64,000 bases of DNA from Procambarus clarkii. Its lineage: Eukaryota > Arthropoda > Malacostraca > Decapoda > Cambaridae. The notes below the pieces were generated by a model that had not been told where the DNA came from, ran no database searches, and saw only the letters and a program-made list of their open reading frames with translations. The stretch lies in the NCBI RefSeq assembly GCF_040958095.1, contig NC_091152.1:22567998-22631997 (forward strand), read 5' to 3'. Position 1 is the first letter of the stretch. The number at the start of each line of letters is the position of its first letter. This document shows positions 2,711 to 64,000 of this stretch, one piece after another. Made by a program: the position numbers and the translations under genes.

Positions 2711-2721
2711 CTCTCAAAAAT

Positions 2722-30482: not shown

Positions 30483-31080
30483 AAATGAAGAGTAAGTTCT
30501 AGATGTTACTACTGCTCGGCTTAGACTCAGTTACAAGTATCTCTGGGAATTATCATTATCTGTTGATGTAGACCTGAACAAATGTAAACTGTGTCAACAA
30601 AACTATTCGCACACCCTCCGTTACTATGTAGTGGAGTGCAAAAAGATACGGGAAATCAGAGACAATTCTATAACCAATGTTCCAACGATGTGAAAATATT
30701 TCATTCAAAATTATCTGCTACCAGAAATTTTAGCCAAATATCCCCAGTTTTCTAACTGTAGGTAGTAACTAAGTAATTGTAACCTATCCACCGCTGCCCA
30801 CTGGATGGGGGCGGTGTGCAGGACAAACATATCAATTATGACACTAGCTCTCCACATATGTCAGTTGCTTAATTTAGAAACTGAATTTGTGGTCGATCTC
30901 GAACCCATTTATGATGTAACGACTTATACTGAATTTTGTAACTAGCTCATCAAGATTGTAACTTGCTTAGCTAAATGAATTGTGGGGTTCAGTCCCTGAG
31001 CCCATTATGTGCCTCTGTAACCCTTTCCACTACCCTTTATTATGCACTCCCTTGGGGTGCGTAATAAATGAACTAAACTA
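30483..31080 (+). pseudogene. RNH-LINE C-terminus and 3' UTR
   Basis: The plus strand reads VLDVTTARLRL, YKYLWELSLSV, then a Cys/His cluster CKLCQQNYSH..YYVVEC (C-x2-C-x5-H-x8-C, possible nucleic-acid binding) and LLPEILAKYPQFSNC after one stop. The 3' UTR carries CCACTGGATGGGGGCGGTG, TTAGCTAAATGAATTGTG and GGGGTGCGTAATAAATGAAC, ending near 31,080. It continues the RNase H reading that stops at 24,495, showing LINE-B landed inside this older element. Confidence 0.7.
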
Positions 31081-31228
31081 ACTATTGTACAGTGCATTTG
31101 TGAGATAAGAGATAGTGCTTATAATATGTAATCTAAACCTCACTCTCCACATAATCTTTAGTATAGATTTCTGTGAAAGTTGCATATACTGCATTTGCTT
31201 CTGTGAGGAAACCATTTATGAAAGGTAC
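31081..31228. other. Left flank of the macrosatellite
   Basis: No feature recognised. Similarity to later units begins at TTTTCTTTTTAAACC (31,229), so this is the last unique sequence before the array. Confidence 0.6.
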
Positions 31229-31245
31229 TTTTCTTTTTAAACCTT

Positions 31246-31759
31246 GTTGGTAAAGATGAATGAGGTTACTTAGTGTGAATTATTTAGACCAGGAGGATCT
31301 CTTGGTTGGTCCAATGGTTTTCTTTCGCTCCCAGGAAACTGATATTTCGGGTGGGTTTTTATTTATGTTATCTAATCTTCTAATTTGACTGCTTATTTGG
31401 CAGGTAGGAGATTTATATAATTTACAGTTTGTGCTTTAGGGTAATATTTGGGAGAGTCTGCTTAAGTCTCCTGCAAACAGGATTCTCTATTGGCGTCCAA
31501 GCCACGAAGTAGCCCCAGTATTATTACTTTAAACTACTAATATTAAGGATAATAAGGCCCAATTTAATGGGCCAAGAAAAAATTATTTAAGACTCATTGA
31601 GTTGTTCCCCTCCACGGAAATCTTTAGTAAAAGGCGAAAGATTTATGTGTTTTGAAGGGAAACCAGAGTTAAATAAGTGAGAAATTTAGCGATACCGCCG
31701 ACAGAGCGCTGAGGCGAAAGAGGTAAACTTATTTCGGGACTAGAAGGGCATGGACCGGT
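31246..31759 (+). repeat. Optional block, copy in unit 1 (514 bp)
   Basis: Sequence between ACCTT and AACTCT that is absent from units 2-6, where ACCTTAACTCT is contiguous, and present again at 59,190-59,717. It has no open frame or transposon hallmark and no target duplication at its ends, so its absence from the other units looks like a deletion rather than its presence like an insertion. Confidence 0.85.
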
Positions 31760-32082
31760 AACTCTTATAAACAGCAATTGTTTTATTCTTTGCAATATTT
31801 CTCTATTGTTGTGCTATCATCAGTTTCATTCTGTATCTTTACTGTTTGGATATATTTATAAGTGTGCATTGTTTTCATAACATAATTTGTGTTATCTGTT
31901 TGACACGTGCTAAAATATATGGTGATGATCCTTGATATGTTACATACGCCATCTGAAAGTTAAAACCTTAACCGTACTTTTATTTCATACTCGTGAAAAT
32001 AAGCAGCAAAAGCGTCGATATATGTTATCGATAGTATCTAAATAATGTAGTACTCGTTAACTTAATAATAACGCTCTATTAC

Positions 32083-32480
32083 TCTCTCATCTATCCTTAT
32101 TTCAATTATGGTGCTTGGGGTTCTACTACCCAAAATCATCTACATCTTCTAATTATACTCAACACAAATCTTCTATAGAACAATAACAAACTTTGGCCCC
32201 AGACAGCTCTCGGTAACCTTATTTAAATCTTTGAATATGTACTGCTGTCCTAGTTGTACTCACTTAGTTGTGTTTTCGGGGATTGAACTCTGGCTCTTTG
32301 GTCCCGCCTCTCAACTGTTGTACAGATTTCCGAGCCCTGTCATATCTACATTTGAAATTGTGTATGGCGTCAGCCTCCACCACATCACTGCCTAATGCAT
32401 TCCACCTGTTAACTACCCTGACACTGAAAAAGTTCTTTCTGAGGTTGGAAGAAAACGTGCTCAGATTGGGGACTTGTTTA
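32083..32480 (+). repeat. LINE-derived piece joined to dispersed repeat (in every unit)
   Basis: 32,083-32,240 reads LYYSLIYPYFNYG, then AWGSTTQNHLHLLITQHKSS in one frame, the post-RT region of LINE-B (compare 25,130-25,310), followed by decay. 32,248-32,480 is the dispersed repeat seen inverted at 8,090. The junction is conserved in all units, so it was part of the founding unit. A 130-codon open frame across this junction in units 2-7 is out of frame with the LINE protein and starts at TTG; I do not consider it a gene. Confidence 0.7.
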
Positions 32481-32493
32481 TTTTATAATGGTA

Positions 32494-32860
32494 AATAATA
32501 AATTAATATATAATAAATTAATATATAATAAATTAATATATAATAAATTAATATATAATAAATTAATTTATTATATAAATTAATAAATAATAAATTAATA
32601 AATAATAAAATTATTATTATATAATAAATAATAATAATAAATAGTATAATGATAAGCAATTATTTTTAATGAATCAAATAGCTAATTAGGATGAATGATA
32701 AATAATTATTGACTAGTGCATAACAATAAAGTATTAAGGAATAATTATAATGAATAATCCTTAATGATAAAGTAGAGATCAATTACAATTAATAACTACA
32801 TCCATAGGTAGTAAATGAAAGTTGCATTAATTAGACTAATTACAATTCATGGGAATATTT
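32494..32860. repeat. 15-bp AT repeat and AT-rich spacer (in every unit)
   Basis: About 4.7 copies of AAATTAATATATAAT (15 bp) at 32,500-32,571 followed by TAATAA-rich sequence. Copy number looks constant between units. Confidence 0.9.
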
Positions 32861-32879
32861 CTTAGCTATCTGCAGGCTT

Positions 32880-33610
32880 ATCACTTTGGGGGTTCCGGCG
32901 GAGCACCCCCAATCCCGCGAGGGCCAGCGGGAGAAGGGGTTCCTTACTCTTACTAGCATGTAGACTGGGCAAAGGATTAGCTGCGGACAGCGGGACACTT
33001 GGGGACCGGCGCTGCACCCCCACCGCAGGCCAGCTGGCCGGACCCCCCCCCCCCCCCGAAGGGCGAGGCCCGCTGGTCGCAAGGAGGCCTCAGAGTGGCA
33101 GTGCAACAACGTCCCGGACGTAGTCAGCTGGGTGTTCCGGCTGGTTGCTGGACCTGCCGTTAACTCCGATGGCTAGCCCGTCAAGAGAGCCGAGTGGCCC
33201 TGTCAATTCTAAAGGTAAGAGGGCGTGGTCGGCTGAAGGCGAGCCTAGCTCTGCGAGGGCGGCGCGAATTAATCGCCCTGAAGAAGTGTTGCCTGTTCAC
33301 TGGGCACGGGCCGGATAGAACTTGCCGGGGGGCGCTCGCTGGGCTAGGGTATGCGTGCGTCCTGCACTGCGCTTGCAGGATCCTAAGAGTGTTGATTCCT
33401 GACCATGTAAGCGATACCTGGTCCAGTCGGAGCGTGCGTCGATTTTTTGTCGCGTAGATCACCTCCCCCCGGGCTGAAAGATATAAGGCAGTAAGGGTGG
33501 GCAGAAGCGGCATGCAGTGTTATCGTGACAGGCAAGGGCACAGACGAGAGGGAAACCCTAGCTGAATCAATACGGAGACGAAAAACGGGGGGAGGGAGCC
33601 CGGCACAGGA
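32880..33610. other. CpG-rich core of the unit
   Basis: About 730 bp of GC-rich, CpG-dense sequence in an otherwise AT-rich array, including GGTTCCGGCGGAGCACC, a homopolymer C run of variable length (33,043-33,057 here) and GCGAGGGCGGCGCG. In animals such islands inside macrosatellites can act as promoters, but nothing here proves that. It includes the small open frame described at 37,938. Confidence 0.6.
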
Positions 33611-34120
33611 ATTAAGAGATTCCTTAATTAACAATCCTGGATGAATAAAGAGTTTTCCGAATAATTATACTGTAGCAATGAAGGGGGCTAACAATTCTAA
33701 GAATCTTCCAGCAAACGGAAGGGGGAAGTACCTTTGCTAAGAGCAAAGGTGGGAGAAAGCCAGTAGGAGAGCAGCAAAGAAGCACAAAGCAACTATAAAC
33801 AGGGATAATACGAAACACTATAAATCTTGAATATAAACAATACATATACCAAGAACGGGTATATACAACAAAGCAATATATACATAAACAATAAAATGGA
33901 ATAAGAACCAATTCTTAAAGCCAAATCTATAACATGCTTGTGTCCTAAGCGGATGTAGAATGTGAGCGGGGAACATTACCCTTCGTCTCCATCCCATCTC
34001 TGCTTCCAGACGGGTGATAGGGCTGGATAGAAGCCAAGGAGTCTGCCTTAAGTGGCCGCTGAGTGTAGTCTTGTGTTGTCAATGAGCGTCTGCAAGCCGC
34101 AGCTAGTACGCCGTGAACTT

Positions 34121-34407
34121 TAGCAGTCTCCGTGGTGTAGTGGTAAGACACTCGCCTGGCGTTCCGCGAGCGCTATGTCATGGGTTCGTATCCTGGCCGG
34201 GGAGGATTTACTGGGCGCAATTCCTTAACTGTAGCCTCTGTTTAACGCAACAGTAAAATGTGTACTTGGATGAAAAAACGATTCTTCGCGGCAGGGGATC
34301 GTATTCCAGGGACCATAGGATTAAGGACTTGCCCGAAACGCTACGCGTACTAGTGGCTGTACAAGAATGTAACAACTCTTGTATATATCTCCAAAAAAAA
34401 AAAAAAA
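34121..34407 (+). mobile_element. tRNA-derived SINE in unit 1
   Basis: The head is tRNA-like: TCTCCGTGGTGTAGTGGTAA at 34,127 resembles a tRNA-Val 5' half with the A box, and GGGTTCGTATCC at 34,182-34,193 is a B box. TCTCCG and CGGGGA can pair as an acceptor stem. These are internal RNA polymerase III promoter elements. The 3' part (34,318-34,390) shares TTGCCCGAAACGCTACGCGT and CTAGTGGCTGTACAAGAATG with the LINE-A tail, and a run of 17 A follows (overlapping the target duplication). The insert is flanked by the 5-bp duplication AACTT (34,116-34,120 and 34,408-34,412). Units 3-7 have the uninterrupted site GTGAACTTCGG, so this is a clean insertion. Not a functional tRNA gene: the anticodon loop is not canonical. 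Confidence 0.85.
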
Positions 34408-34816
34408 AACTTCGGCTACATCTTTTAGAACAGGGGCAAAGTGAAATCGACGGCAGGGAACCGTCATCCAGTAACTGTAATAAGGAATAATATTAAGAAT
34501 ACAATGTCGTAAATAATCGTACAATGTAAGAATACAATGTAATATCGTAAATAACCGATGACGGCAAGTGCCGCAGAATGGAAGAAATTAAGAAAGCAAC
34601 GCCAAACCATAATAACAATTTATATTTTTAATAAAATAATACTGGAATGACAGTAACGATACGGAATAATATTAATACTATCATATAGCCCAGCAAATAA
34701 GGGAAGATAATAGTATTAACGTAGGCCCTGGGCGGCTGCAACCCGGCACCGCTGCGTGTGTTGTAATGGTGATAAGAGGAATATCCGGCTCGCGTTCTCT
34801 TCCTCGCCGCAGTAGC

Positions 34817-34841
34817 TTTTTTTTTTTTTTTTTTTTTTTTT
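34817..34841. repeat. Poly-T tract (in every unit)
   Basis: 25 T here; by unit 25, 25, 27, 26, 24 and, after an A at the third base in units 6 and 7 (CTTATT), 23 and 24. It is followed by a short direct repeat TTTTTAGGCATGA. It could be the reversed poly-A tail of an old retroposon, but no body is recognisable. Confidence 0.8.
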
Positions 34842-35006
34842 AGGCATGAATTTTTAGGCATGAGGCAAAAGCAATGCTATAAATTGCGGAAGTAATACAA
34901 CTCATAACTGAAAGTCTAGCAGTCATAAGATATATTTTAAAATTGTTCACAAATAATATAAATTATAAATCACCAAAACGGCGTACCGCACGACGCCAGG
35001 GCGTCA

Positions 35007-35576
35007 AAGCTTAAGGTAGAGATAACCGAGACGGCGAGTAGCCACTCGCTCGGCCTAACTGGCCTTACCTAACAACTTAAACAAAGTCGAGCGAACAAGC
35101 ATAAAATTCCACCGGGAAGTAAAACCTGTAGCTGGTGTTGGGAGGGCATCAATTGAATTAAACTGTGATAGGGTAAATGTAAACATTTAGGCCGTAAATG
35201 ATAAACCACATAACATAACCAGGAGAAACAACAAATATGCCGCAAGGCTACCCGTAATAACAGTAATAATTTACAGAGGAAACTAAACATAAATGCAGGG
35301 CCTGAAACTTAAAGCAGGAGACAAGGGCCCGTAACACCGCGACTAGCACGTCCTAACTGACTTTACTTAATAACTTAAGGCAAAGCAAAAGTTAAACAAA
35401 CATACTGTAAACACAGTAAAAGACACGTGCAATAAAACAAAGCATCCTGAGCGGGAATAAAGTGAGTAGGCTAGTGGAAAATGCGAAGCCAGGGAAACTG
35501 AAGCAAGAGGCAAGAGGCCTGCGACACGGCAACTAGCACAACCTAGCTGGCTTAGTTAATAACTCAAATACAATAA
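35007..35576. repeat. Three degenerate internal direct repeats of about 85 bp
   Basis: 35,007-35,095, 35,304-35,390 and 35,493-35,576 share the order A-A-R-C-T-T-A-A, purine-rich segment, a CGACTAGCAC-like core (CGGCGAGTAGCCAC, CGCGACTAGCACG, CGGCAACTAGCAC), CCTAACTGGC-like and TTA.TAACTTAA. They are separated by 297 and 189 bp. The same triplet occurs in every unit, so the unit itself arose from an older, smaller tandem repeat. Confidence 0.65.
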
Positions 35577-35769
35577 GCACGGGATTTTTTATATGTTAAA
35601 GAATTATGCACGTGGGTAGTACCTGGACCTTAAACCCACATTAACGTAGCGTGTATAACACAAACACCAATAGTCAAAATTGTGCAAAATAATGGATCAA
35701 CTTAACGACCGTTGCCGAATGTTGAACTGCAAAATCCTGCCATCAGCGGCTGGAACATCGGGGCTGGGC

Positions 35770-36450
35770 ACCTGCAGCTGGACATCGACAGCTGGAGCAT
35801 CAACATCTGATAAAGGGAGGAAAATAGCGGCAACTGGCCACCAGGGAAGACCTTAGTGGTAAGTAGAGGGCCAGCTGCAAGACAATTTAGGCTTAAGACT
35901 GGAATATAACTGTCCTAGAAATAACGGGAACAATTCATGAAGCTGGGAAAGCGAGAATTACAAAACTGAAAAGAGTGTTAAATTGATGGGCGCAACGTCG
36001 GGTGGAACGCTTCAGCTGGAGGTTCATGACTGAAGCATCGGCTGCCGGGAAGCCTAAGATGGAACTGGGGCGTTAGCAGCTGTAACATCGTCTGCTGAAA
36101 CTAGCTGAATCTGCGAGGGCGCCCGCTGCAACAGCTACGGCCGAGCCACCAGCTGGCCCATCCTCTGCAGGAACAACACCGGCTGGGACGACGTCGTTGG
36201 AAAAGCCTAACAATGTAATAAATTATTATATGAATAATCGTAAATAAATGGTGTAAATAATAAAATTATAAACCAATTATAACTAATTATAAATAATTAA
36301 ATTGCAAAACAAAGTATGCTCAAAATAAAGCTGGACTATAACTCCTTAGAGAAACGGGATTAGCACTTTGAGCAGAGGTAAATACAACCAAATACATTAA
36401 CGAAAAGGAGTGAAAAAAAAAGACACTTCGGCTGGAAGGCTTCAGCTGGA
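35770..36450. other. CAGCTG-rich segment (in every unit)
   Basis: Seven CAGCTG hexamers occur at 35775, 35789, 35872, 36013, 36077, 36150 and 36443, where about 0.16 would be expected by chance at equal base frequencies. Many near copies (GGCTGGAACATC, GGCTGGGCAC) lie between, so this is probably a degenerate short tandem repeat. CAGCTG is also the E-box core bound by bHLH factors; whether it acts as such is unknown. Confidence 0.6.
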
Positions 36451-37937
36451 ACTTCGGCGTGGGAGGCGTTTTCTTCTCCACCTTCTCGGCGTTTTCTTTT
36501 TAAACCTTAACTCTAATAAACAGTAATTGTTTTATTCTTTGCAATATTTCTCTATTGTTGTGCTATCATCAGTTTCATTCTGTATCTTTACTGTTTGGAT
36601 ATATTTATAAGTGTGCATTGTTTTCATAACATAATTTGTGTTATCTGTTTGACACGTGCTAAAATATATGGTGATGATCCTTGATATGTTACATACGCCA
36701 TCTGAAAGTTAAAACCTTAACCGTATTTTTATTTCATACTCGTGAAAATAAGCAGCAAAAGCGTCGATATATGTTATCGATAGTATCTAAATAATGTAGT
36801 ACTCGTTAACTTAATAATAACGCTCTATTACTCTCTCATCTATCCTTATTTCAATTATGGTGCTTGGGGTTCTACTACCCAAAATCATCTACATCTTCTA
36901 ATTACTCAACACAAATCTTCTATAGAACAATAACAAACTTTGGCCCCAGACAGCTCTCGGTAACCTTATTTAAATCTTTGAATATGTACTGCTGTCCTAG
37001 TTGTACTCACTTAGTTGTGTTTTCGGGGATTGAACTCTGGCTCTTTGGTCCCGCCTCTCAACTGTCAATCAACTGTTGTACAGATTCCCGAGCCCTGTCA
37101 TATCTACATTTGAAATTGTGTATGGCGTCAGCCTCCACCACATCACTGCCTAATGCATTCCACCTGTTAACTACCCTGACACTGAAAAAGTTCTTTCTGA
37201 GGTTGGAAGAAAACGTGCTCAGATTGGGGACTTGTTTATTTTATAATGGTAAATAATAAATTAATATATAATAAATTAATATATAATAAATTAATATATA
37301 ATAAATTAATATATAATAAATTAATTTATTATATAAATTAATAAATAATAAATTAATAAATAATAAAATTATTATTATATAATAAATAATAATAATAAAT
37401 AGTATAATGATAAGCAATTATTTTTAATGAATCAAATAGCTAATTAGGATGAATGATAAATAATTATTGACTAGTGCATAACAATAAAGTATTAAGGAAT
37501 AATTATAATGAATAATCCTTAATGATAAAGTAGAGATCAATTACAATTAATAACTACATCCATAGGTAGTAAATGAAAGTTGCATTAATTAGACTAATTA
37601 CAATTCATGGGAATATTTCTTAGCTATCTGCAGGCTTATCACTTTGGGGGTTCCGGCGGAGCACCCCCAATCCCGCGAGGGCCAGCGGGAGAAGGATTAA
37701 GGAGAAGGGGTTCCTTACTCTTACTAGCATGTAGACTGGGCAAAGGATTAGCTGCGGACAGCGGGACACTTGGGGACCGGCGCTGCACCCCCACCGCAGG
37801 CCAGCTGGCCGGACCCCCCCCCCCCCGAAGGGCGAGGCCCGCTGGTCGCAAGGAGGCCTCAGAGTGGCAGTGCAACAACGTCCCGGACGTAGTCAGCTGG
37901 GTGTTCCGGCTGGTTGCTGGACCTGCCGTTAACTCCG

Positions 37938-38087
37938 ATGGCTAGCCCGTCAAGAGAGCCGAGTGGCCCTGTCAATTCTAAAGGTAAGAGGGCGTGGTCG
38001 GCTGAAGGCGAGCCTAGCTCTGCGAGGGCGGCGCGAATTAATCGCCCTGAAGAAGTGTTGCCTGTTCACTGGGCACGGGCCGGGTAG
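37938..38087 (+). CDS. Conserved 49-codon ORF in the CpG-rich core (doubtful)
   Basis: ATG in a fair initiation context (CTCCGATGG), protein starting MASPSREPSGPVNSKGKR and ending VLPVHWARAG, stop TAG. It is rich in Ser, Pro, Arg and Ala, with no domain recognised. The same frame lies at 33169-33318, 42712-42861, 47193-47342, 51659-51808, 56141-56290 and 61144-61293. The only difference I see is a silent GGA for GGG before the stop in unit 1. A donor-like AAAGGTAAGAG lies within codons 15-18, so it could be a first coding exon. Against it: the units are almost identical anyway, and longer open frames exist on both strands of this GC-rich stretch. No function assigned. Confidence 0.2.
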   Translation: MASPSREPSGPVNSKGKRAWSAEGEPSSARAARINRPEEVLPVHWARAG

Positions 38088-38889
38088 AACTTGCCGGGGG
38101 GCGCTCGCTGGGCTAGGGTATGCATGCGTCCTGCACTGCGCTTGCAGGATCCTAAGAGTGTTGATTCCTGACCATGTAAGCGATACCTGGTCCAGTCGGA
38201 GCGTGCGTCGATTTTTTGTCGCGTAGATCACCTCCCCCCGGGCTGAAAGATATAAGGCAGTAAGGGTGGGCAGAAGCGGCATGCAGTGTTATCGTGACAG
38301 GCAAGGGCACAGACGAGAGGGAAACCCTAGCTGAATCAATACGGAGACGAAAAACGGGGGGAGGGAGCCCGGCACAGGAATTAAGAGATTCCTTAATTAA
38401 CAATCCTGGATGAATAAAGAGTTTTCCGAATAATTATACTGTAGCAATGAAGGGGGCTAACAATTCTAAGAATCTTCCAGCAAACGGAAGGGGGAAGTAC
38501 CTTTGCTAAGAGCAAAGGTGGGAGAAAGCCAGTAGGAGAGCAGCAAAGAAGCACAAAGCAACTATAAACAGGGATAATACGAAACACTATAAATCTTGAA
38601 TATAAACAATACATATACCAAGAACGGGTATATACAACAAAGCAATATATACATAAACAATAAAATGGAATAAGAACCAATTCTTAAAGCCAAATCTATA
38701 ACATGCTTGTGTCCTAAGCGGATGTAGAATGTGAGCGGGGAACATTACCCTTCGTCTCCATCCCATCTCTGCTTCCAGACGGGTGATAGGGCTGGATAGA
38801 AGCCAAGGAGTCTGCCTTAAGTGGCCGCTGAGTGTAGTCTTGTGTTGTCAATGAGCGTCTGCAAGCCGCAGCTAGTACGCCGTGAACTT

Positions 38890-39176
38890 TAGCAGTCTCC
38901 GTGGTGTAGTGGTAAGACACTCGCCTGGCGTTCCGCGAGCGCTATGTCATGGGTTCGTATCCTGGCCGGGGAGGATTTACTGGGCGCAATTCCTTAACTG
39001 TAGCCTCTGTTTAACGCAACAGTAAAATGTGTACTTGGATGAAAAAACGATTCTTCGCGGCAGGGGATCGTATTCCAGGGACCATAGGATTAAGGACTTG
39101 CCCGAAACGCTACGCGTACTAGTGGCTGTACAAGAATGTAACAACTCTTGTATATATCTCCAAAAAAAAAAAAAAA
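38890..39176 (+). mobile_element. tRNA-derived SINE in unit 2
   Basis: Same site, same AACTT duplication (38,885-38,889 and 39,177-39,181) and same 17-A tail as in unit 1. This is one insertion copied by unit duplication, not two independent insertions. Confidence 0.85.
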
Positions 39177-41260
39177 AACTTCGGCTACATCTTTTAGAAC
39201 AGGGGCAAAGTGAAATCGACGGCAGGGAACCGTCATCCAGTAACTGTAATAAGGAATAATATTAAGAATACAATGTCGTAAATAATCGTACAATGTAAGA
39301 ATACAATGTAATATCGTAAATAACCGATGACGGCAAGTGCCGCAGAATGGAAGAAATTAAGAAAGCAACGCCAAACCATAATAACAATTTATATTTTTAA
39401 TAAAATAATACTGGAATGACAGTAACGATACGGAATAATATTAATACTATCATATAGCCCAGCAAATAAGGGAAGATAATAGTATTAACGTAGGCCCTGG
39501 GCGGCTGCAACCCGGCACCGCTGCGTGTGTTGTAATGGTGATAAGAGGAATATCCGGCTCGCGTTCTCTTCCTCGCCGCAGTAGCTTTTTTTTTTTTTTT
39601 TTTTTTTTTTAGGCATGAATTTTTAGGCATGAGGCAAAAGCAATGCTATAAATTGCGGAAGTAATACAACTCATAACTGAAAGTCTAGCAGTCATAAGAT
39701 ATATTTTAAAATTGTTCACAAATAATATAAATTATAAATCACCAAAACGGCGTACCGCACGACGCCAGGGCGTCAAAGCTTAAGGTAGAGATAACCGAGA
39801 CGGCGAGTAGCCACTCGCTCGGCCTAACTGGCCTTACCTAACAACTTAAACAAAGTCGAGCGAACAAGCATAAAATTCCACCGGGAAGTAAAACCTGTAG
39901 CTGGTGTTGGGAGGGCATCAATTGAATTAAACTGTGATAGGGTAAATGTAAACATTTAGGCCGTAAATGATAAACCACATAACGTAACCAGGAGAAACAA
40001 CAAATATGCCGCAAGGCTACCCGTAATAACAGTAATAATTTACAGAGGAAACTAAACATAAATGCAGGGCCTGAAACTTAAAGCAGGAGACAAGGGCCCG
40101 TAACACCGCGACTAGCACGTCCTAACTGACTTTACTTAATAACTTAAGGCAAAGCAAAAGTTAAACAAACATACTGTAAACACAGTAAAAGACACGTGCA
40201 ATAAAACAAAGCATCCTGAGCGGGAATAAAGTGAGTAGGCTAGTGGAAAATGCGAAGCCAGGGAAACTGAAGCAAGAGGCAAGAGGCCTGCGACACGGCA
40301 ACTAGCACAACCTAGCTGGCTTAGTTAATAACTCAAATACAATAAGCACGGGATTTTTTATATGTTAAAGAATTATGCACGTGGGTAGTACCTGGACCTT
40401 AAACCCACATTAACGTAGCGTGTATAACACAAACACCAATAGTCAAAATTGTGCAAAATAATGGATCAACTTAACGACCGTTGCCGAATGTTGAACTGCA
40501 AAATCCTGCCATCAGCGGCTGGAACATCGGGGCTGGGCACCTGCAGCTGGACATCGACAGCTGGAGCATCAACATCTGATAAAGGGAGGAAAATAGCGGC
40601 AACTGGCCACCAGGGAAGACCTTAGTGGTAAGTAGAGGGCCAGCTGCAAGACAATTTAGGCTTAAGACTGGAATATAACTGTCCTAGAAATAACGGGAAC
40701 AATTCATGAAGCTGGGAAAGCGAGAATTACAAAACTGAAAAGAGTGTTAAATTGATGGGCGCAACGTCGGGTGGAACGCTTCAGCTGGAGGTTCATGACT
40801 GAAGCATCGGCTGCCGGGAAGCCTAAGATGGAACTGGGGCGTTAGCAGCTGTAACATCGTCTGCTGAAACTAGCTGAATCTGCGAGGGCGCCCGCTGCAA
40901 CAGCTACGGCCGAGCCACCAGCTGGCCCATCCTCTGCAGGAACAACACCGGCTGGGACGACGTCGTTGGAAAAGCCTAACAATGTAATAAATTATTATAT
41001 GAATAATCGTAAATAAATGGTGTAAATAATAAAATTATAAACCAATTATAACTAATTATAAATAATTAAATTGCAAAACAAAGTATGCTCAAAATAAAGC
41101 TGGACTATAACTCCTTAGAGAAACGGGATTAACACTTTGAGCAGAGGTAAATACAACCAAATACATTAACGAAAAGGAGTGAAAAAAAAAGACACTTCGG
41201 CTGGAAGGCTTCAGCTGGAACTTCGGCGTGGGAGGCGTTTTCTTCTCCACCTTCTCGGCG

Positions 41261-44063
41261 TTTTCTTTTTAAACCTTAACTCTAATAAACAGTAATTGTT
41301 TTATTCTTTGCAATATTTCTCTATTGTTGTGCTATCATCAGTTTCATTCTGTATCTTTACTGTTTGGATATATTTATAAGTGTGCATTGTTTTCATAACA
41401 TAATTTGTGTTATCTGTTTGACACGTGCTAAAATATATGGTGATGATCCTTGATATGTTACATACGCCATCTGAAAGTTAAAACCTTAACCGTACTTTTA
41501 TTTCATACTCGTGAAAATAAGCAGCAAAAGCGTCGATATATGTTATCGATAGTATCTAAATAATGTAGTACTCGTTAACTTAATAATAACGCTCTATTAC
41601 TCTCTCATCTATCCTTATTTCAATTATGGTGCTTGGGGTTCTACTACCCAAAATCATCTACATCTTCTAATTACTCAACACAAATCTTCTATAGAACAAT
41701 AACAAACTTTGGCCCCAGACAGCTCTCGGTAACCTTATTTAAATCTTTGAATATGTACTGCTGTCCTAGTTGTACTCACTTAGTTGTGTTTTCGGGGATT
41801 GAACTCTGGCTCTTTGGTCCCGCCTCTCAACTGTCAATCAACTGTTGTACAGATTCCCGAGCCCTGTCATATCTACATTTGAAATTGTGTATGGCGTCAG
41901 CCTCCACCACATCACTGCCTAATGCATTCCACCTGTTAACTACCCTGACACTGAAAAAGTTCTTTCTGAGGTTGGAAGAAAACGTGCTCAGATTGGGGAC
42001 TTGTTTATTTTATAATGGTAAATAATAAATTAATATATAATAAATTAATATATAATAAATTAATATATAATAAATTAATATATAATAAATTAATTTATTA
42101 TATAAATTAATAAATAATAAATTAATAAATAATAAAATTATTATTATATAATAAATAATAATAATAAATAGTATAATGATAAGCAATTATTTTTAATGAA
42201 TCAAATAGCTAATTAGGATGAATGATAAATAATTATTGACTAGTGCATAACAATAAAGTATTAAGGAATAATTATAATGAATAATCCTTAATGATAAAGT
42301 AGAGATCAATTACAATTAATAACTACATCCATAGGTAGTAAATGAAAGTTGCATTAATTAGACTAATTACAATTCATGGGAATATTTCTTAGCTATCTGC
42401 AGGCTTATCACTTTGGGGGTTCCGGCGGAGCACCCCCAATCCCGCGAGGGCCAGCGGGAGAAGGATTAAGGAGAAGGGGTTCCTTACTCTTACTAGCATG
42501 TAGACTGGGCAAAGGATTAGCTGCGGACAGCGGGACACTTGGGGACCGGCGCTGCACCCCCACCGCAGGCCAGCTGGCCGGACCCCCCCCCCCCCCCCCC
42601 GAAGGGCGAGGCCCGCTGGTCGCAAGGAGGCCTCAGAGTGGCAGTGCAACAACGTCCCGGACGTAGTCAGCTGGGTGTTCCGGCTGGTTGCTGGACCTGC
42701 CGTTAACTCCGATGGCTAGCCCGTCAAGAGAGCCGAGTGGCCCTGTCAATTCTAAAGGTAAGAGGGCGTGGTCGGCTGAAGGCGAGCCTAGCTCTGCGAG
42801 GGCGGCGCGAATTAATCGCCCTGAAGAAGTGTTGCCTGTTCACTGGGCACGGGCCGGGTAGAACTTGCCGGGGGGCGCTCGCTGGGCTAGGGTATGCGTG
42901 CGTCCTGCACTGCGCTTGCAGGATCCTAAGAGTGTTGATTCCTGACCATGTAAGCGATACCTGGTCCAGTCGGAGCGTGCGTCGATTTTTTGTCGCGTAG
43001 ATCACCTCCCCCCGGGCTGAAAGATATAAGGCAGTAAGGGTGGGCAGAAGCGGCATGCAGTGTTATCGTGACAGGCAAGGGCACAGACGAGAGGGAAACC
43101 CTAGCTGAATCAATACGGAGACGAAAAACGGGGGGAGGGAGCCCGGCACAGGAATTAAGAGATTCCTTAATTAACAATCCTGGATGAATAAAGAGTTTTC
43201 CGAATAATTATACTGTAGCAATGAAGGGGGCTAACAATTCTAAGAATCTTCCAGCAAACGGAAGGGGGAAGTACCTTTGCTAAGAGCAAAGGTGGGAGAA
43301 AGCCAGTAGGAGAGCAGCAAAGAAGCACAAAGCAACTATAAACAGGGATAATACGAAACACTATAAATCTTGAATATAAACAATACATATACCAAGAACG
43401 GGTATATACAACAAAGCAATATATACATAAACAATAAAATGGAATAAGAACCAATTCTTAAAGCCAAATCTATAACATGCTTGTGTCCTAAGCGGATGTA
43501 GAATGTGAGCGGGGAACATTACCCTTCGTCTCCATCCCATCTCTGCTTCCAGACGGGTGATAGGGCTGGATAGAAGCCAAGGAGTCTGCCTTAAGTGGCC
43601 GCTGAGTGTAGTCTTGTGTTGTCAATGAGCGTCTGCAAGCCGCAGCTAGTACGCCGTGAACTTCGGCTACATCTTTTAGAACAGGGGCAAAGTGAAATCG
43701 ACGGCAGGGAACCGTCATCCAGTAACTGTAATAAGGAATAATATTAAGAATACAATGTCGTAAATAATCGTACAATGTAAGAATACAATGTAATATCGTA
43801 AATAACCGATGACGGCAAGTGCCGCAGAATGGAAGAAATTAAGAAAGCAACGCCAAACCATAATAACAATTTATATTTTTAATAAAATAATACTGGAATG
43901 ACAGTAACGATACGGAATAATATTAATACTATCATATAGCCCAGCAAATAAGGGAAGATAATAGTATTAACGTAGGCCCTGGGCGGCTGCAACCCGGCAC
44001 CGCTGCGTGTGTTGTAATGGTGATAAGAGGAAAATCCGGCTCGCGTTCTCTTCCTCGCCGCAG

Positions 44064-44094
<31 letters not shown>

Positions 44095-53200: not shown

Positions 53201-54688
53201 TCAAAGCTTAAGGTAGAGATAACCGAGACGGCGAGTAGCCACTCGCTCGGCCTAACTGGCCTTACCTAACAACTTAAACAAAGTCGAGCGAACAAGCATA
53301 AAATTCCACCGGGAAGTAAAACCTGTAGCTGGTGTTGGGAGGGCATCAATTGAATTAAACTGTGATAGGGTAAATGTAAACATTTAGGCCGTAAATGATA
53401 AACCACATAACGTAACCAGGAGAAACAACAAATATGCCGCAAGGCTACCCGTAATAACAGTAATAATTTACAGAGGAAACTAAACATAAATGCAGGGCCT
53501 GAAACTTAAAGCAGGAGACAAGGGCCCGTAACACCGCGACTAGCACGTCCTAACTGACTTTACTTAATAACTTAAGGCAAAGCAAAAGTTAAACAAACAT
53601 ACTGTAAACACAGTAAAAGACACGTGCAATAAAACAAAGCATCCTGAGCGGGAATAAAGTGAGTAGGCTAGTGGAAAATGCGAAGCCAGGGAAACTGAAG
53701 CAAGAGGCAAGAGGCCTGCGACACGGCAACTAGCACAACCTAGCTGGCTTAGTTAATAACTCAAATACAATAAGCACGGGATTTTTTATATGTTAAAGAA
53801 TTATGCACGTGGGTAGTACCTGGACCTTAAACCCACATTAACGTAGCGTGTATAACACAAACACCAATAGTCAAAATTGTGCAAAATAATGGATCAACTT
53901 AACGACCGTTGCCGAATGTTGAACTGCAAAATCCTGCCATCAGCGGCTGGAACATCGGGGCTGGGCACCTGCAGCTGGACATCGACAGCTGGAGCATCAA
54001 CATCTGATAAAGGGAGGAAAATAGCGGCAACTGGCCACCAGGGAAGACCTTAGTGGTAAGTAGAGGGCCAGCTGCAAGACAATTTAGGCTTAAGACTGGA
54101 ATATAACTGTCCTAGAAATAACGGGAACAATTCATGAAGCTGGGAAAGCGAGAATTACAAAACTGAAAAGAGTGTTAAATTGATGGGCGCAACGTCGGGT
54201 GGAACGCTTCAGCTGGAGGTTCATGACTGAAGCATCGGCTGCCGGGAAGCCTAAGATGGAACTGGGGCGTTAGCAGCTGTAACATCGTCTGCTGAAACTA
54301 GCTGAATCTGCGAGGGCGCCCGCTGCAACAGCTACGGCCGAGCCACCAGCTGGCCCATCCTCTGCAGGAACAACACCGGCTGGGACGACGTCGTTGGAAA
54401 AGCCTAACAATGTAATAAATTATTATATGAATAATCGTAAATAAATGGTGTAAATAATAAAATTATAAACCAATTATAACTAATTATAAATAATTAAATT
54501 GCAAAACAAAGTATGCTCAAAATAAAGCTGGACTATAACTCCTTAGAGAAACGGGATTAACACTTTGAGCAGAGGTAAATACAACCAAATACATTAACGA
54601 AAAGGAGTGAAAAAAAAAGACACTTCGGCTGGAAGGCTTCAGCTGGAACTTCGGCGTGGGAGGCGTTTTCTTCTCCACCTTCTCGGCG
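50223..54688 (+). repeat. Macrosatellite unit 5 (4,466 bp; no SINE, no block)
   Basis: Lacks the 13-bp ATTAAGGAGAAGG copy near 51,425, like unit 1, and has lost the A before the C run (CCGGCCCC at 51,528). Private CAGGACGCC for CACGACGCC near 53,187. Poly-C 17, poly-T 24. Confidence 0.9.
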
Positions 54689-57600
54689 TTTTCTTTTTAA
54701 ACCTTAACTCTAATAAACAGTAATTGTTTTATTCTTTGCAATATTTCTCTATTGTTGTGCTATCATCAGTTTCATTCTGTATCTTTACTGTTTGGATATA
54801 TTTATAAGTGTGCATTGTTTTCATAACATAATTTGTGTTATCTGTTTGACACGTGCTAAAATATATGGTGATGATCCTTGATATGTTACATACGCCATCT
54901 GAAAGTTAAAACCTTAACCGTACTTTTATTTCATACTCGTGAAAATAAGCAGCAAAAGCGTCGATATATGTTATCGATAGTATCTAAATAATGTAGTACT
55001 CGTTAACTTAATAATAACGCTCTATTACTCTCTCATCTATCCTTATTTCAATTATGGTGCTTGGGGTTCTACTACCCAAAATCATCTACATCTTCTAATT
55101 ACTCAACACAAATCTTCTATAGAACAATAACAAACTTTGGCCCCAGACAGCTCTCGGTAACCTTATTTAAATCTTTGAATATGTACTGCTGTCCTAGTTG
55201 TACTCACTTAGTTGTGTTTTCGGGGATTGAACTCTGGCTCTTTGGTCCCGCCTCTCAACTGTCAATCAACTGTTGTACAGATTCCCGAGCCCTGTCATAT
55301 CTACATTTGAAATTGTGTATGGCGTCAGCCTCCACCACATCACTGCCTAATGCATTCCACCTGTTAACTACCCTGACACTGAAAAAGTTCTTTCTGAGGT
55401 TGGAAGAAAACGTGCTCAGATTGGGGACTTGTTTATTTTATAATGGTAAATAATAAATTAATATATAATAAATTAATATATAATAAATTAATATATAATA
55501 AATTAATATATAATAAATTAATTTATTATATAAATTAATAAATAATAAATTAATAAATAATAAAATTATTATTATATAATAAATAATAATAATAAATAGT
55601 ATAATGATAAGCAATTATTTTTAATGAATCAAATAGCTAATTAGGATGAATGATAAATAATTATTGACTAGTGCATAACAATAAAGTATTAAGGAATAAT
55701 TATAATGAATAATCCTTAATGATAAAGTAGAGATCAATTACAATTAATAACTACATCCATAGGTAGTAAATGAAAGTTGCATTAATTAGACTAATTACAA
55801 TTCATGGGAATATTTCTTAGCTATCTGCAGGCTTATCACTTTGGGGGTTCCGGCGGAGCACCCCCAATCCCGCGAGGGCCAGCGGGAGAAGGATTAAGGA
55901 GAAGGGGTTCCTTACTCTTACTAGCATGTAGACTGGGCAAAAGATTAGCTGCGGACAGCGGGACACTTGGGGACCGGCGCTGCACCCCCACCGCAGGCCA
56001 GCTGGCCGGACCCCCCCCCCCCCCCCCCCGAAGGGCGAGGCCCGCTGGTCGCAAGGAGGCCTCAGAGTGGCAGTGCAACAACGTCCCGGACGTAGTCAGC
56101 TGGGTGTTCCGGCTGGTTGCTGGACCTGCCGTTAACTCCGATGGCTAGCCCGTCAAGAGAGCCGAGTGGCCCTGTCAATTCTAAAGGTAAGAGGGCGTGG
56201 TCGGCTGAAGGCGAGCCTAGCTCTGCGAGGGCGGCGCGAATTAATCGCCCTGAAGAAGTGTTGCCTGTTCACTGGGCACGGGCCGGGTAGAACTTGCCGG
56301 GGGGCGCTCGCTGGGCTAGGGTATGCGTGCGTCCTGCACTGCGCTTGCAGGATCCTAAGAGTGTTGATTCCTGACCATGTAAGCGATACCTGGTCCAGTC
56401 GGAGCGTGCGTCGATTTTTTGTCGCGTAGATCACCTCCCCCCGGGCTGAAAGATATAAGGCAGTAAGGGTGGGCAGAAGCGGCATGCAGTGTTATCGTGA
56501 CAGGCAAGGGCACAGACGAGAGGGAAACCCTAGCTGAATCAATACGGAGACGAAAAACGGGGGGAGGGAGCCCGGCACAGGAATTAAGAGATTCCTTAAT
56601 TAACAATCCTGGATGAATAAAGAGTTTTCCGAATAATTATACTGTAGCAATGAAGGGGGCTAACAATTCTAAGAATCTTCCAGCAAACGGAAGGGGGAAG
56701 TACCTTTGCTAAGAGCAAAGGTGGGAGAAAGCCAGTAGGAGAGCAGCAAAGAAGCACAAAGCAACTATAAACAGGGATAATACGGAACACTATAAATCTT
56801 GAATATAAACAATACATATACCAAGAACGGGTATATACAACAAAGCAATATATACATAAACAATAAAATGGAATAAGAACCAATTCTTAAAGCCAAATCT
56901 ATAACATGCTTGTGTCCTAAGCGGATGTAGAATGTGAGCGGGGAACATTACCCTTCGTCTCCATCCCATCTCTGCTTCCAGACGGGTGATAGGGCTGGAT
57001 AGAAGCCAAGGAGTCTGCCTTAAGTGGCCGCTGAGTGTAGTCTTGTGTTGTCAATGAGCGTCTGCAAGCCGCAGCTAGTACGCCGTGAACTTCGGCTACA
57101 TCTTTTAGAACAGGGGCAAAGTGAAATCGACGGCAGGGAACCGTCATCCAGTAACTGTAATAAGGAATAATATTAAGAATACAATGTCGTAAATAATCGT
57201 ACAATGTAAGAATACAATGTAATATCGTAAATAACCGATGACGGCAAGTGCCGCAGAATGGAAGAAATTAAGAAAGCAACGCCAAACCATAATAACAATT
57301 TATATTTTTAATAAAATAATACTGGAATGACAGTAACGATACGGAATAATATTAATACTATCATATAGCCCAGCAAATAAGGGAAGATAATAGTATTAAC
57401 GTAGGCCCTGGGCGGCTGCAACCCGGCACCGCTGCGTGTGTTGTAATGGTGATAAGAGGAATATCCGGCTCGCGTTCTCTTCCTCGCCGCAGTAGCTTAT
57501 TTTTTTTTTTTTTTTTTTTTTTAGGCATGAATTTTTAGGCATGAGGCAAAAGCAATGCTATAAATTGCGGAAGTAATACAACTCATAACTGAAAGTCTAG

Positions 57601-59172
57601 CAGTCATAAGATATATTTTAAAATTGTTCACAAATAATATAAATTATAAATCACCAAAACGGCGTACCGCACGACGCCAGGGCGTCAAAGCTTAAGGTAG
57701 AGATAACCGAGACGGCGAGTAGCCACTCGCTCGGCCTAACTGGCCTTACCTAACAACTTAAACAAAGTCGAGCGAACAAGCATAAAATTCCACCGGGAAG
57801 TAAAACCTGTAGCTGGTGTTGGGAGGGCATCAATTGAATTAAACTGTGATAGGGTAAATGTAAACATTTAGGCCGTAAATGATAAACCACATAACGTAAC
57901 CAGGAGAAACAACAAATATGCCGCAAGGCTACCCGTAATAACAGTAATAATTTACAGAGGAAACTAAACATAAATGCAGGGCCTGAAACTTAAAGCAGGA
58001 GACAAGGGCCCGTAACACCGCGACTAGCACGTCCTAACTGACTTTACTTAATAACTTAAGGCAAAGCAAAAGTTAAACAAACATACTGTAAACACAGTAA
58101 AAGACACGTGCAATAAAACAAAGCATCCTGAGCGGGAATAAAGTGAGTAGGCTAGTGGAAAATGCGAAGCCAGGGAAACTGAAGCAAGAGGCAAGAGGCC
58201 TGCGACACGGCAACTAGCACAACCTAGCTGGCTTAGTTAATAACTCAAATACAATAAGCACGGGATTTTTTATATGTTAAAGAATTATGCACGTGGGTAG
58301 TACCTGGACCTTAAACCCACATTAACGTAGCGTGTATAACACAAACACCAATAGTCAAAATTGTGCAAAATAATGGATCAACTTAACGACCGTTGCCGAA
58401 TGTTGAACTGCAAAATCCTGCCATCAGCGGCTGGAACATCGGGGCTGGGCACCTGCAGCTGGACATCGACAGCTGGAGCATCAACATCTGATAAAGGGAG
58501 GAAAATAGCGGCAACTGGCCACCAGGGAAGACCTTAGTGGTAAGTAGAGGGCCAGCTGCAAGACAATTTAGGCTTAAGACTGGAATATAACTGTCCTAGA
58601 AATAACGGGAACAATTCATGAAGCTGGGAAAGCGAGAATTACAAAACTGAAAAGAGTGTTAAATTGATGGGCGCAACGTCGGGTGGAACGCTTCAGCTGG
58701 AGGTTCATGACTGAAGCATCGGCTGCCGGGAAGCCTAAGATGGAACTGGGGCGTTAGCAGCTGTAACATCTTCTGCTGAAACTAGCTGAATCTGTGAGGG
58801 CGCCCGCTGCAACAGCTACGGCCGAGCCACCAGCTGGCCCATCCTCTGCAGGAACAACACCGGCTGGGACGACGTCGTTGGAAAAGCCTAACAATGTAAT
58901 AAATTATTATATGAATAATCGTAAATAAATGGTGTAAATAATAAAATTATAAACCAATTATAACTAATTATAAATAATTAAATTGCAAAACAAAGTATGC
59001 TCAAAATAAAGCTGGACTATAACTCCTTAGAGAAACGGGATTAACACTTTGAGCAGAGGTAAATACAACCAAATACATTAACGAAAAGGAGTGAAAAAAA
59101 AAGACACTTCGGCTGGAAGGCTTCAGCTGGAACTTCGGCGTGGGAGGCGTTTTCTTCTCCACCTTCTCGGCG
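54689..59172 (+). repeat. Macrosatellite unit 6 (4,484 bp; no SINE, no block)
   Basis: Shares CAAAAGATTAG (55,938), CTTATTTT (57,497) and AATCTGTGAGG (58,789) with unit 7. Poly-C 19. Confidence 0.9.
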
Positions 59173-62100
59173 TTTTCTTTTTAAACCTTGTTGGTAAAGA
59201 TGAATGAGGTTACTTAGTGTGAATTATTTAGACCAGGAGGATCTCTTGGTTGGTCCAATGGTTTTCTTTCGCTCCCAGGAAACTGATATTTCGGATGGGT
59301 TTTTATTTATGTTATCTAATCTTCTAATTTGACTGCTTATTTGGCAGGTAGGAGATTTATATAATTTACAGTTTGTGCTTTAGGGTAATATTTGGGAGAG
59401 TCCGCTTAAGTCTCCTGCAAACAGGATTCTCTATTGGCGTCCAAGCCACGAAGTAGCCCCAGTAATATTACTTTAAACTACTAATATTAAGGATAATAAG
59501 GCCCAATTCAATGGGCCAAGAAAAAATTATTTAAAAAAAATTATTTAAGACTCATTGAGTTGTTCCCCTCCACGGAAATCTTTAGTAAAAGGCGAAAGAT
59601 TTATGCGTTTTGAAGGGAAACCAGAGTTAAATATGCGAGAAATTTAGCGATACCGCCGACAGAGCGCTGAGGCGAAAAACGTAAACTTATTTCGGGACTA
59701 GAAGGGCATGGACCGGTAACTCTAATAAACAGTAATTGTTTTATTCTTTGCAATATTTCTCTATTGTTGTGCTATCATCAGTTTCATTCTGTATCTTTAC
59801 TGTTTGGATATATTTATAAGTGTGCATTGTTTTCATAACATAATTTGTGTTATCTGTTTGACACGTGCTAAAATATATGGTGATGATCCTTGATATGTTA
59901 CATACGCCATCTGAAAGTTAAAACCTTAACCGTACTTTTATTTCATACTCGTGAAAATAAGCAGCAAAAGCGTCGATATATGTTATCGATAGTATCTAAA
60001 TAATGTAGTACTCGTTAACTTAATAATAACGCTCTATTACTCTCTCATCTATCCTTATTTCAATTATGGTGCTTGGGGTTCTACTACCCAAAATCATCTA
60101 CATCTTCTAATTACTCAACACAAATCTTCTATAGAACAATAACAAACTTTGGCCCCAGACAGCTCTCGGTAACCTTATTTAAATCTTTGAATATGTACTG
60201 CTGTCCTAGTTGTACTCACTTAGTTGTGTTTTCTGGGATTGAACTCTGGCTCTTTGGTCCCGCCTCTCAACTGTCAATCAACTGTTGTACAGATTCCCGA
60301 GCCCTGTCATATCTACATTTGAAATTGTGTATGGCGTCAGCCTCCACCACATCACTGCCTAATGCATTCCACCTGTTAACTACCCTGACACTGAAAAAGT
60401 TCTTTCTGAGGTTGGAAGAAAACGTGCTCAGATTGGGGACTTGTTTATTTTATAATGGTAAATAATAAATTAATATATAATAAATTAATATATAATAAAT
60501 TAATATATAATAAATTAATATATAATAAATTAATTTATTATATAAATTAATAAATAATAAATTAATAAATAATAAAATTATTATTATATAATAAATAATA
60601 ATAATAAATAGTATAATGATAAGCAATTATTTTTAATGAATCAAATAGCTAATTAGGATGAATGATAAATAATTATTGACTAGTGCATAACAATAAAGTA
60701 TTAAGGAATAATTATAATGAATAATCCTTAATGATAAAGTAGAGATCAATTACAATTAATAACTACATCCATAGGTAGTAAATGAAAGTTGCATTAATTA
60801 GACTAATTACAATTCATGGGAATATTTCTTAGCTATCTGCAGGCTTATCACTTTGGGGGTTCCGGCGGAGCACCCCCAATCCCGCGAGGGCCAGCGGGAG
60901 AAGGATTAAGGAGAAGGGGTTCCTTACTCTTACTAGCATGTAGACTGGGCAAAAGATTAGCTGCGGACAGCGGGACACTTGGGGACCGGCGCTGCACCCC
61001 CACCGCAGGCCAGCTGGCCGGACCCCCCCCCCGAAGGGCGAGGCCCGCTGGTCGCAAGGAGGCCTCAGAGTGGCAGTGCAACAACGTCCCGGACGTAGTC
61101 AGCTGGGTGTTCCGGCTGGTTGCTGGACCTGCCGTTAACTCCGATGGCTAGCCCGTCAAGAGAGCCGAGTGGCCCTGTCAATTCTAAAGGTAAGAGGGCG
61201 TGGTCGGCTGAAGGCGAGCCTAGCTCTGCGAGGGCGGCGCGAATTAATCGCCCTGAAGAAGTGTTGCCTGTTCACTGGGCACGGGCCGGGTAGAACTTGC
61301 CGGGGGGCGCTCGCTGGGCTAGGGTATGCGTGCGTCCTGCACTGCGCTTGCAGGATCCTAAGAGTGTTGATTCCTGACCATGTAAGCGATACCTGGTCCA
61401 GTCGGAGCGTGCGTCGATTTTTTGTCGCGTAGATCACCTCCCCCCGGGCTGAAAGATATAAGGCAGTAAGGGTGGGCAGAAGCGGCATGCAGTGTTATCG
61501 TGACAGGCAAGGGCACAGACGAGAGGGAAACCCTAGCTGAATCAATACGGAGACGAAAAACGGGGGGAGGGAGCCCGGCACAGGAATTAAGAGATTCCTT
61601 AATTAACAATCCTGGATGAATAAAGAGTTTTCCGAATAATTATACTGTAGCAATGAAGGGGGCTAACAATTCTAAGAATCTTCCAGCAAACGGAAGGGGG
61701 AAGTACCTTTGCTAAGAGCAAAGGTGGGAGAAAGCCAGTAGGAGAGCAGCAAAGAAGCACAAAGCAACTATAAACAGGGATAATACGAAACACTATAAAT
61801 CTTGAATATAAACAATACATATACCAAGAACGGGTATATACAACAAAGCAATATATACATAAACAATAAAATGGAATAAGAACCAATTCTTAAAGCCAAA
61901 TCTATAACATGCTTGTGTCCTAAGCGGATGTAGAATGTGAGCGGGGAACATTACCCTTCGTCTCCATCCCATCTCTGCTTCCAGACGGGTGATAGGGCTG
62001 GATAGAAGCCAAGGAGTCTGCCTTAAGTGGCCGCTGAGTGTAGTCTTGTGTTGTCAATGAGCGTCTGCAAGCCGCAGCTAGTACGCCGTGAACTTCGGCT

Positions 62101-64000
62101 ACATCTTTTAGAACAGGGGCAAAGTGAAATCGACGGCAGGGAACCGTCATCCAGTAACTGTAATAAGGAATAATATTAAGAATACAATGTCGTAAATAAT
62201 CGTACAATGTAAGAATACAATGTAATATCGTAAATAACCGATGACGGCAAGTGCCGCAGAATGGAAGAAATTAAGAAAGCAACGCCAAACCATAATAACA
62301 ATTTATATTTTTAATAAAATAATACTGGAATGACAGTAACGATACGGAATAATATTAATACTATCATATAGCCCAGCAAATAAGGGAAGATAATAGTATT
62401 AACGTAGGCCCTGGGCGGCTGCAACCCGGCACCGCTGCGTGTGTTGTAATGGTGATAAGAGGAATATCCGGCTCGCGTTCTCTTCCTCGCCGCAGTAGCT
62501 TATTTTTTTTTTTTTTTTTTTTTTTTAGGCATGAATTTTTAGGCATGAGGCAAAAGCAATGCTATAAATTGCGGAAGTAATACAACTCATAACTGAAAGT
62601 CTAGCAGTCATAAGATATATTTTAAAATTGTTCACAAATAATATAAATTATAAATCACCAAAACGGCGTACCGCACGACGCCAGGGCGTCAAAGCTTAAG
62701 GTAGAGATAACCGAGACGGCGAGTAGCCACTCGCTCGGCCTAACTGGCCTTACCTAACAACTTAAACAAAGTCGAGCGAACAAGCATAAAATTCCACCGG
62801 GAAGTAAAACCTGTAGCTGGTGTTGGGAGGGCATCAATTGAATTAAACTGTGATAGGGTAAATGTAAACATTTAGGCCGTAAATGATAAACCACATAACG
62901 TAACCAGGAGAAACAACAAATATGCCGCAAGGCTACCCGTAATAACAGTAATAATTTACAGAGGAAACTAAACATAAATGCAGGGCCTGAAACTTAAAGC
63001 AGGAGACAAGGGCCCGTAACACCGCGACTAGCACGTCCTAACTGACTTTACTTAATAACTTAAGGCAAAGCAAAAGTTAAACAAACATACTGTAAACACA
63101 GTAAAAGACACGTGCAATAAAACAAAGCATCCTGAGCGGGAATAAAGTGAGTAGGCTAGTGGAAAATGCGAAGCCAGGGAAACTGAAGCAAGAGGCAAGA
63201 GGCCTGCGACACGGCAACTAGCACAACCTAGCTGGCTTAGTTAATAACTCAAATACAATATGCACGGGATTTTTTATATGTTAAAGAATTATGCACGTGG
63301 GTAGTACCTGGACCTTAAACCCACATTAACGTAGCGTGTATAACACAAACACCAATAGTCAAAATTGTGCAAAATAATGGATCAACTTAACGACCGTTGC
63401 CGAATGTTGAACTGCAAAATCCTGCCATCAGCGGCTGGAACATCGGGGCTGGGCACCTGCAGCTGGACATCGACAGCTGGAGCATCAACATCTGATAAAG
63501 GGAGGAAAATAGCGGCAACTGGCCACCAGGGAAGACCTTAGTGGTAAGTAGAGGGCCAGCTGCAAGACAATTTAGGCTTAAGACTGGAATATAACTGTCC
63601 TAGAAATAACGGGAACAATTCATGAAGCTGGGAAAGCGAGAATTACAAAACTGAAAAGAGTGTTAAATTGATGGGCGCAACGTCGGGTGGAACGCTTCAG
63701 CTGGAGGTTCATGACTGAAGCATCGGCTGCCGGGAAGCCTAAGATGGAACTGGGGCGTTAGCAGCTGTAACATCGTCTGCTGAAACTAGCTGAATCTGTG
63801 AGGGCGCCCGCTGCAACAGCTACGGCCGAGCCACCAGCTGGCCCATCCTCTGCAGGAACAACACCGGCTGGGACGACGTCGTTGGAAAAGCCTAACAATG
63901 TAATAAATTATTATATGAATAATCGTAAATAAATGGTGTAAATAATAAAATTATAAACCAATTATAACTAATTATAAATAATTAAATTGCAAAACAAAGT
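59173..64000 (+). repeat. Macrosatellite unit 7, truncated by the window end (block, no SINE)
   Basis: Carries the 528-bp block, empty SINE site and the variants shared with unit 6. Poly-C run only 10. The window ends about 200 bp before the CTTCGGCTGG segment that closes other units, so the array continues. Confidence 0.9.
59190..59717 (+). repeat. Optional block, copy in unit 7 (528 bp)
   Basis: Matches 31,246-31,759 with a few substitutions and a 14-bp tandem duplication of an AAAAATTATTTA segment near 59,520-59,548, which accounts for the length difference. Confidence 0.85.

Follow-up and report, generated by a model that had tools for sequence, protein, structure and literature searches.

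As reported, the human U2 snRNA genes at the RNU2 locus lie in a near-perfect tandem unit of 6.1 kb, which is present in 6–82 copies and contains Alu or LTR sequence (PMC3795722). Linked U2-U5 snDNA in fishes and snRNA linkages in Drosophila are described in PMC3464664, and titles cited in that article indicate tandem 5S-U1 units in an isopod crustacean. For crustaceans, we found no paper on U5 arrays in the open-licence literature, as judged by titles and abstract openings, and the term 'snRNA' is absent from the main text of a 2026 survey of crayfish satellites (PMC13130569). In this study, we analyzed a stretch of 64,000 nucleotides from Procambarus clarkii, hereafter the window (contig NC_091152.1 or C3, 22567998–22631997; assembly of 4.03 Gb), in which a first-pass annotation had described a homogeneous, recently amplified macrosatellite. 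Its sequence identifies this repeat as an array of U5 snRNA genes in tandem, in which a mobile-element-like spacer adjoins every gene; a run of copies within the window consists of the spacer without the gene.

We read 244 kb in all, comprising the window, 40 kb on its left and 140 kb on its right; positions are given in window numbering throughout. The landmark TTTTCTTTTTAAACCTT occurs at 31229, 36492, 41261, 45743, 50223, 54689, and 59173, and exactly reproduces the spacings of 5263, 4769, 4482, 4480, 4466, and 4484 bp in the first-pass annotation. These seven units, the last of which is truncated at the window end, are arranged head-to-tail, and each carries one landmark of the CpG-rich, AT-rich, and CAGCTG-rich parts that had been noted (seven occurrences of each in the window). 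Their pairwise substitution identity is 99.8–100.0%, and 20 of 5307 alignment columns are variable, so the units are as nearly identical as claimed. Similarly, the divergence among 12 units of the extended locus, one of them partial, is 0.04–0.38% (mean 0.21%), and the description as a homogeneous and recently amplified macrosatellite holds. The array continues beyond 64000 with U5-bearing units of approximately 5.0 kb. In the extended locus, the landmark marks 13 slots, the first at 31229 and the last at 116710. Later insertions interrupt the array between 79839 and 107449, and its downstream part holds three different insertions. The size of the array is that given by the assembly, and the single N run of the 244-kb stretch (7374–7873) lies outside it. 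Moreover, the search of the unit against its own genome gave five whole-unit matches (query 1–4482) among 29 scored candidates, all confined to the present locus.

U5 snRNA is defined by a loop I with CGCCUUUUACUA, an Sm site, and a 3' stem-loop. All three are present in the aligned copy and can be read in the other array copies. Two U5 genes lie in the window (Table 1), and the next 130 kb downstream contain seven further Rfam matches, of which six occupy array slots and one is inverted on the opposite strand. Relative to the commonest U5 sequence of the genome, the gene at the left edge carries a single change and that at 117.1 kb four substitutions, while the array copies at 79.5 and 112.1 kb match it exactly. 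The second gene of the window is a variant in which 14 nt of the Sm-site region are duplicated in tandem, so that AAATAATTTTTT occurs twice, and in which the 3' loop has one change. The doubled Sm region occurs in four of the eight array genes (59.6, 64.6, 69.6, and 74.6 kb), and a score of 94.9 bits is exclusive to these four among the 35 U5 matches of the genome. When folded alone, both forms keep the 3' stem, with an MFE of −33.9 (z −3.67) for the doubled-Sm form and −32.7 (z −4.24) for the plain form. Based on the four doubled Sm regions and the four substitutions at 117.1 kb, some of the array genes could be pseudogenes.

Rfam reports no other RNA family in 31000–37500 at an E-value of 1 and none but U5 across the window at curated cut-offs, and ARAGORN finds no tRNA gene in the window. 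An rDNA, 5S, or tRNA array is thereby excluded for the window. The first-pass annotation had not recognised the repeat as rDNA or 5S and had overlooked the U5 gene. Its proposal of a cluster of transcribed non-coding units came close, as the locus is an array of RNA genes; its choice of the CpG-rich core as the driver finds no indication here, and this core sits within a dispersed repeat present on many contigs.

Table 1. Features of the U5 array and its surroundings in window coordinates
Feature	Position	Strand	Basis
LINE-like stretch left of the U5 module	26649..30613	-	97.9% self-match to 2733-6698
Left-edge U5 module (gene and flanks), array start	31229..31791		95.7% match to 59173-59749; landmark at 31229
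U5 snRNA gene, left array edge	31555..31671	-	Rfam RF00020, 100.6 bits, cut-off 40
Dispersed-repeat copy, unit 1, SINE-like insertion within	32436..36456	+	5' end common to dispersed copies; landmarks
SINE-like insertion with A tail, unit 1	34121..34407	+	292 bases including doubled AACTT; filled and empty site read
Tandem-duplication junction: truncated repeat 3' end, ~35 bases of filler, left end of U5 module	36448..36508		61-base string
U5 deletion junction 1 of 5	36508..36509		junction string AAACCTTAACTC from 36502
Dispersed-repeat copy, unit 2, SINE-like insertion within	37194..41225	+	landmarks, genome search
SINE-like insertion, unit 2, same element	38890..39176	+	self-comparison, unit alignment
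U5 deletion junction 2 of 5	41277..41278		AAACCTTAACTC from 41271
Dispersed-repeat copy, unit 3	41963..45707	+	query 687-4431 of genome search
U5 deletion junction 3 of 5	45759..45760		AAACCTTAACTC from 45753
Dispersed-repeat copy, unit 4	46445..50187	+	landmarks
U5 deletion junction 4 of 5	50239..50240		AAACCTTAACTC from 50233
Dispersed-repeat copy, unit 5	50925..54653	+	landmarks
U5 deletion junction 5 of 5	54705..54706		AAACCTTAACTC from 54699
Dispersed-repeat copy, unit 6	55391..59137	+	landmarks
U5 snRNA gene, doubled-Sm variant	59499..59629	-	Rfam RF00020, 94.9 bits at 59516-59629; full extent from sequence
Dispersed-repeat copy, unit 7, extends beyond window	60403..64000	+	landmarks

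The AT-rich, CpG-rich, and CAGCTG-rich parts of the unit together form one dispersed repeat of approximately 3.7 kb without recognised coding sequence; five longer array frames gave no Pfam match at an E-value of 0.01. Among the 29 candidates scored from 9275 first-look candidates, six near-complete copies lie on other contigs (three on C37 and one each on C69, C15, and C17) at 96–97% identity, and many shorter matches start at query 684–687 or internally, with 90–98% identity among the larger ones. Furthermore, a genome-wide count of the 57-base 5' end with up to two mismatches gave 409 occurrences, array copies included, and none for the reversed control. All eight 5' ends that we fetched, chosen for beginning there, contain TTTTCTGA and are preceded by unrelated sequence. 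The repeat has a fixed 5' end, together with a 3' tail of short hairpin-like repeats. Additionally, two U5 flanks at the right edge of the array extend through the insertion point of the repeat without containing it. All 12 copies of the 61-base tandem junction across the extended locus, six of them in the window, are identical. As all joints are identical, a single founding duplication would be the simplest origin, and homogenisation could also have equalised them.

Variation in unit length is explained by a few discrete events. The SINE-like insertion is found in units 1 and 2 only and is missing from the other five of the seven window units; its likeness to a tRNA was judged by eye, and ARAGORN reports no tRNA in it. 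The 5263-bp slot therefore consists of a unit with both the U5 module and this 292-bp insertion, and the 4769-bp slot contains the insertion without U5. The last spacing, taken from landmarks across U5, is 5012 as opposed to 4484, as slot 59173 also carries U5. In total, U5 is present in eight of the 13 slots and absent from five, which are consecutive (36492 to 54689) and all inside the window. These five share one junction, at which 528 bp are missing relative to unit 6 (about 59190–59717) and one base is shared at the joint. The deletion extends to about −88 from the U5 start at 59629, so that the gene and the conserved block from −80 to −21 are gone while the distal block is kept. The "4.48-kb" unit is the product of this 528-bp deletion. 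The sequence on either side of the U5 module also occurs at U5 copies elsewhere, so the event was probably a loss of U5 rather than a gain. A reading at window size can overlook the gene where units without it take up most of the sequence. To the left of the array, the LINE-like stretch contains the endonuclease domains PF14529 and PF03372 in 28755–29510.

Across the genome, we scored 46 candidates and obtained at least 35 U5 matches, all above the cut-off, which is a lower bound (26 on C3, four on C4, three on C11, and one each on C8 and C70). The present cluster accounts for nine of the 35, the inverted copy included, and given the 26 outside, it may not be the main source of U5. One identical U5 sequence recurs in 15 of 30 fetched loci, from C3, C4, C11, and groups with differing flanks. 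We compared six groups by a single representative each, the array being represented by the copy at 112.1 kb; all were picked with the commonest, top-scoring U5 sequence, which partly accounts for their invariant gene. Their flanks share 28–59% pairwise identity, and the blocks from −240 to −161 and from −80 to −21 share 72–84%. This pattern fits selection or gene conversion that acts on both the gene and the blocks upstream of it.

We found no significant match for a promoter motif at −81 common to U5 and U1 or U2. Between U2 and U5, 14 of 21 positions agree for the array copy, which 7% of shuffles equal, and the other U5 groups agree less well; the only two comparisons that no shuffle matched concern AT-rich stretches near −120. 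The genome also contains 46 U2 matches from 46 scored candidates, on seven contigs and mostly at steps of 2.7–2.9 kb. For U1, there are 42 matches (34 above the cut-off), of which nine follow steps of approximately 4.9 kb on contig C50 and many others are scattered. As U2 and part of U1 are tandem, tandem snRNA genes are not peculiar to the U5 locus.

From the gene, the anatomy of the unit, the shared junctions, the shared deletion, and the dispersed repeat, we consider it highly probable that a tandem U5 array formed by repeat insertion, tandem duplication, expansion, gene loss, and spread. The dispersed repeat of approximately 3.7 kb would have inserted upstream of a single U5 gene, at a distance of approximately 0.8 kb. 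Tandem duplication of the gene, its flank, and the repeat would have followed and left a short filler between the copies. Unequal exchange and homogenisation could then have expanded the array. Intact units would be transcribed on the minus strand from their own snRNA promoter and would contribute to the supply of U5 RNA. Subsequently, one unit would have lost the gene and the proximal upstream block through the 528-bp deletion, and this gene-free unit would have been copied into five consecutive slots, which constitute the macrosatellite seen in the first-pass annotation. Thus, the gene-free run looks like a satellite arising from a gene array. A stronger version, in which satellite DNA arises from an essential RNA-gene array as gene-free units replace gene-bearing ones and, at the same time, the U5 with two Sm-type sites in several of the remaining units is expressed as a distinct isoform, seems to us quite improbable.

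Alternatively, the locus could be a satellite of a mobile repeat that carries U5 genes as passengers and has no role in snRNA supply. The dispersed repeat makes up most of the unit, the gene is missing from five of 13 slots, the Sm region is doubled in four of eight genes, and 26 of 35 U5 matches lie elsewhere, all of which would agree with such an origin. However, two array genes are identical to the commonest U5, the gene-bearing array copy that we examined retains the conserved upstream blocks, and U2 and some U1 genes are likewise tandem, which makes passenger genes an unlikely account. The near-identity of the units might also arise if the assembler had multiplied one or two of them, but the units carry shared and private marks, namely, the 20 variable columns among seven units, the insertion in two, the deletion in five, and the Sm duplication in four, and three different insertions break the downstream part; we regard an artefact as very improbable. 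Finally, long homogeneous units are also what a centromeric, heterochromatic, or sex-linked macrosatellite, as suggested in the first-pass annotation, would present without any tie to RNA genes. Such an identity is scarcely credible for a single short array at approximately 22.6 Mb of a 63-Mb contig in which eight of 13 slots carry U5. No finding here speaks for a centromeric or sex-chromosome function, though the array might have a second role of this sort beside its U5 content.

Interpreted as a U5 array with a unit-wise loss of the gene, the formerly anonymous macrosatellite acquires a readable history, from repeat insertion and founding duplication to gene loss, spread, and later insertions. 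The locus also offers a natural test of how an array of housekeeping RNA genes tolerates or purges gene-free units. Its nearest known counterpart is human RNU2, as described in the source cited above, where an snRNA gene likewise lies in a multi-kilobase, near-perfect tandem unit; in contrast to RNU2, the crayfish gene is U5, a single dispersed repeat makes up most of the unit, and the gene is absent from five units in a row. With the U2-U5 snDNA of fishes, as far as that account goes, it shares U5 within repeated gene units, whereas unit 1 of the crayfish array holds no second Rfam family and measures approximately 5 kb instead of approximately 1 kb. The isopod 5S-U1 units, known here by title, similarly represent tandem snRNA units in a crustacean, but they combine U1 with 5S, while the crayfish array contains U5. 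Within the same genome, the tandem U2 and U1 genes also stand at regular steps. Collectively, these comparisons indicate that the kind of locus is already known, as in human RNU2, and that the unusual features are the gene-free run and the doubled-Sm U5 variant in four units.

Beyond the tandem array of U5 snRNA genes, nine more U5 copies (L029, L030, L036-L039, L045, L047 and L048) lie on the same contig, C3, between about 4.8 and 56.4 Mb. These nine share roughly 0.66-3.1 kb at 95-99.97%, and in several of them direct repeats of 360-420 bp, with a spacing of about 1.45 kb, surround the gene. Carried within a larger repeat, U5 appears to have multiplied along this one chromosome.

The left edge of the array also has a copy on contig C8, which spans the LINE-like flank, the first U5 gene and the beginning of the dispersed repeat that makes up most of each array unit. 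This copy reflects either a recent duplication or an assembly effect. The LINE-like stretch occurs twice in the window, the two copies being 97.9% alike, and the second contains an endonuclease domain. Separately, the window holds a clean minisatellite.

Positions of repeats and copies (window numbering unless a contig is named)
Feature	Position	Size	Details
Minisatellite	9930-11217	139-bp unit	9.3 copies, 99% matches
LINE-like, first copy	2733-6698	4 kb	
LINE-like, second copy	26649-30613	4 kb	
Left-edge copy (L051)	G000:C8:14873000-14881999, positions 1-6950		matches 26567-33516, 99.8% identity, 6956 aligned columns
First insertion		~11.2 kb	terminal repeats at least 1674 bp, mutually identical
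Second insertion		16.3 kb	ends CCCAGCA...TGCTGGG
Third insertion		7.2 kb	987-bp terminal repeats, 99.2% alike
Doubled 5' end	C2:8075317 and 8075686		
Doubled 5' end	C20:13004644 and 13005328		

Among the genomic matches listed for the 5' end of the dispersed repeat, some come in pairs spaced about 370 or 684-731 bp apart, of which the table gives examples; this looks as though the repeat carried tandem 5' monomers. Finally, three later insertions interrupt the array outside the window (79840-107448 and 117533-124721); read by eye, the first and third belong to the LTR-retrotransposon class.
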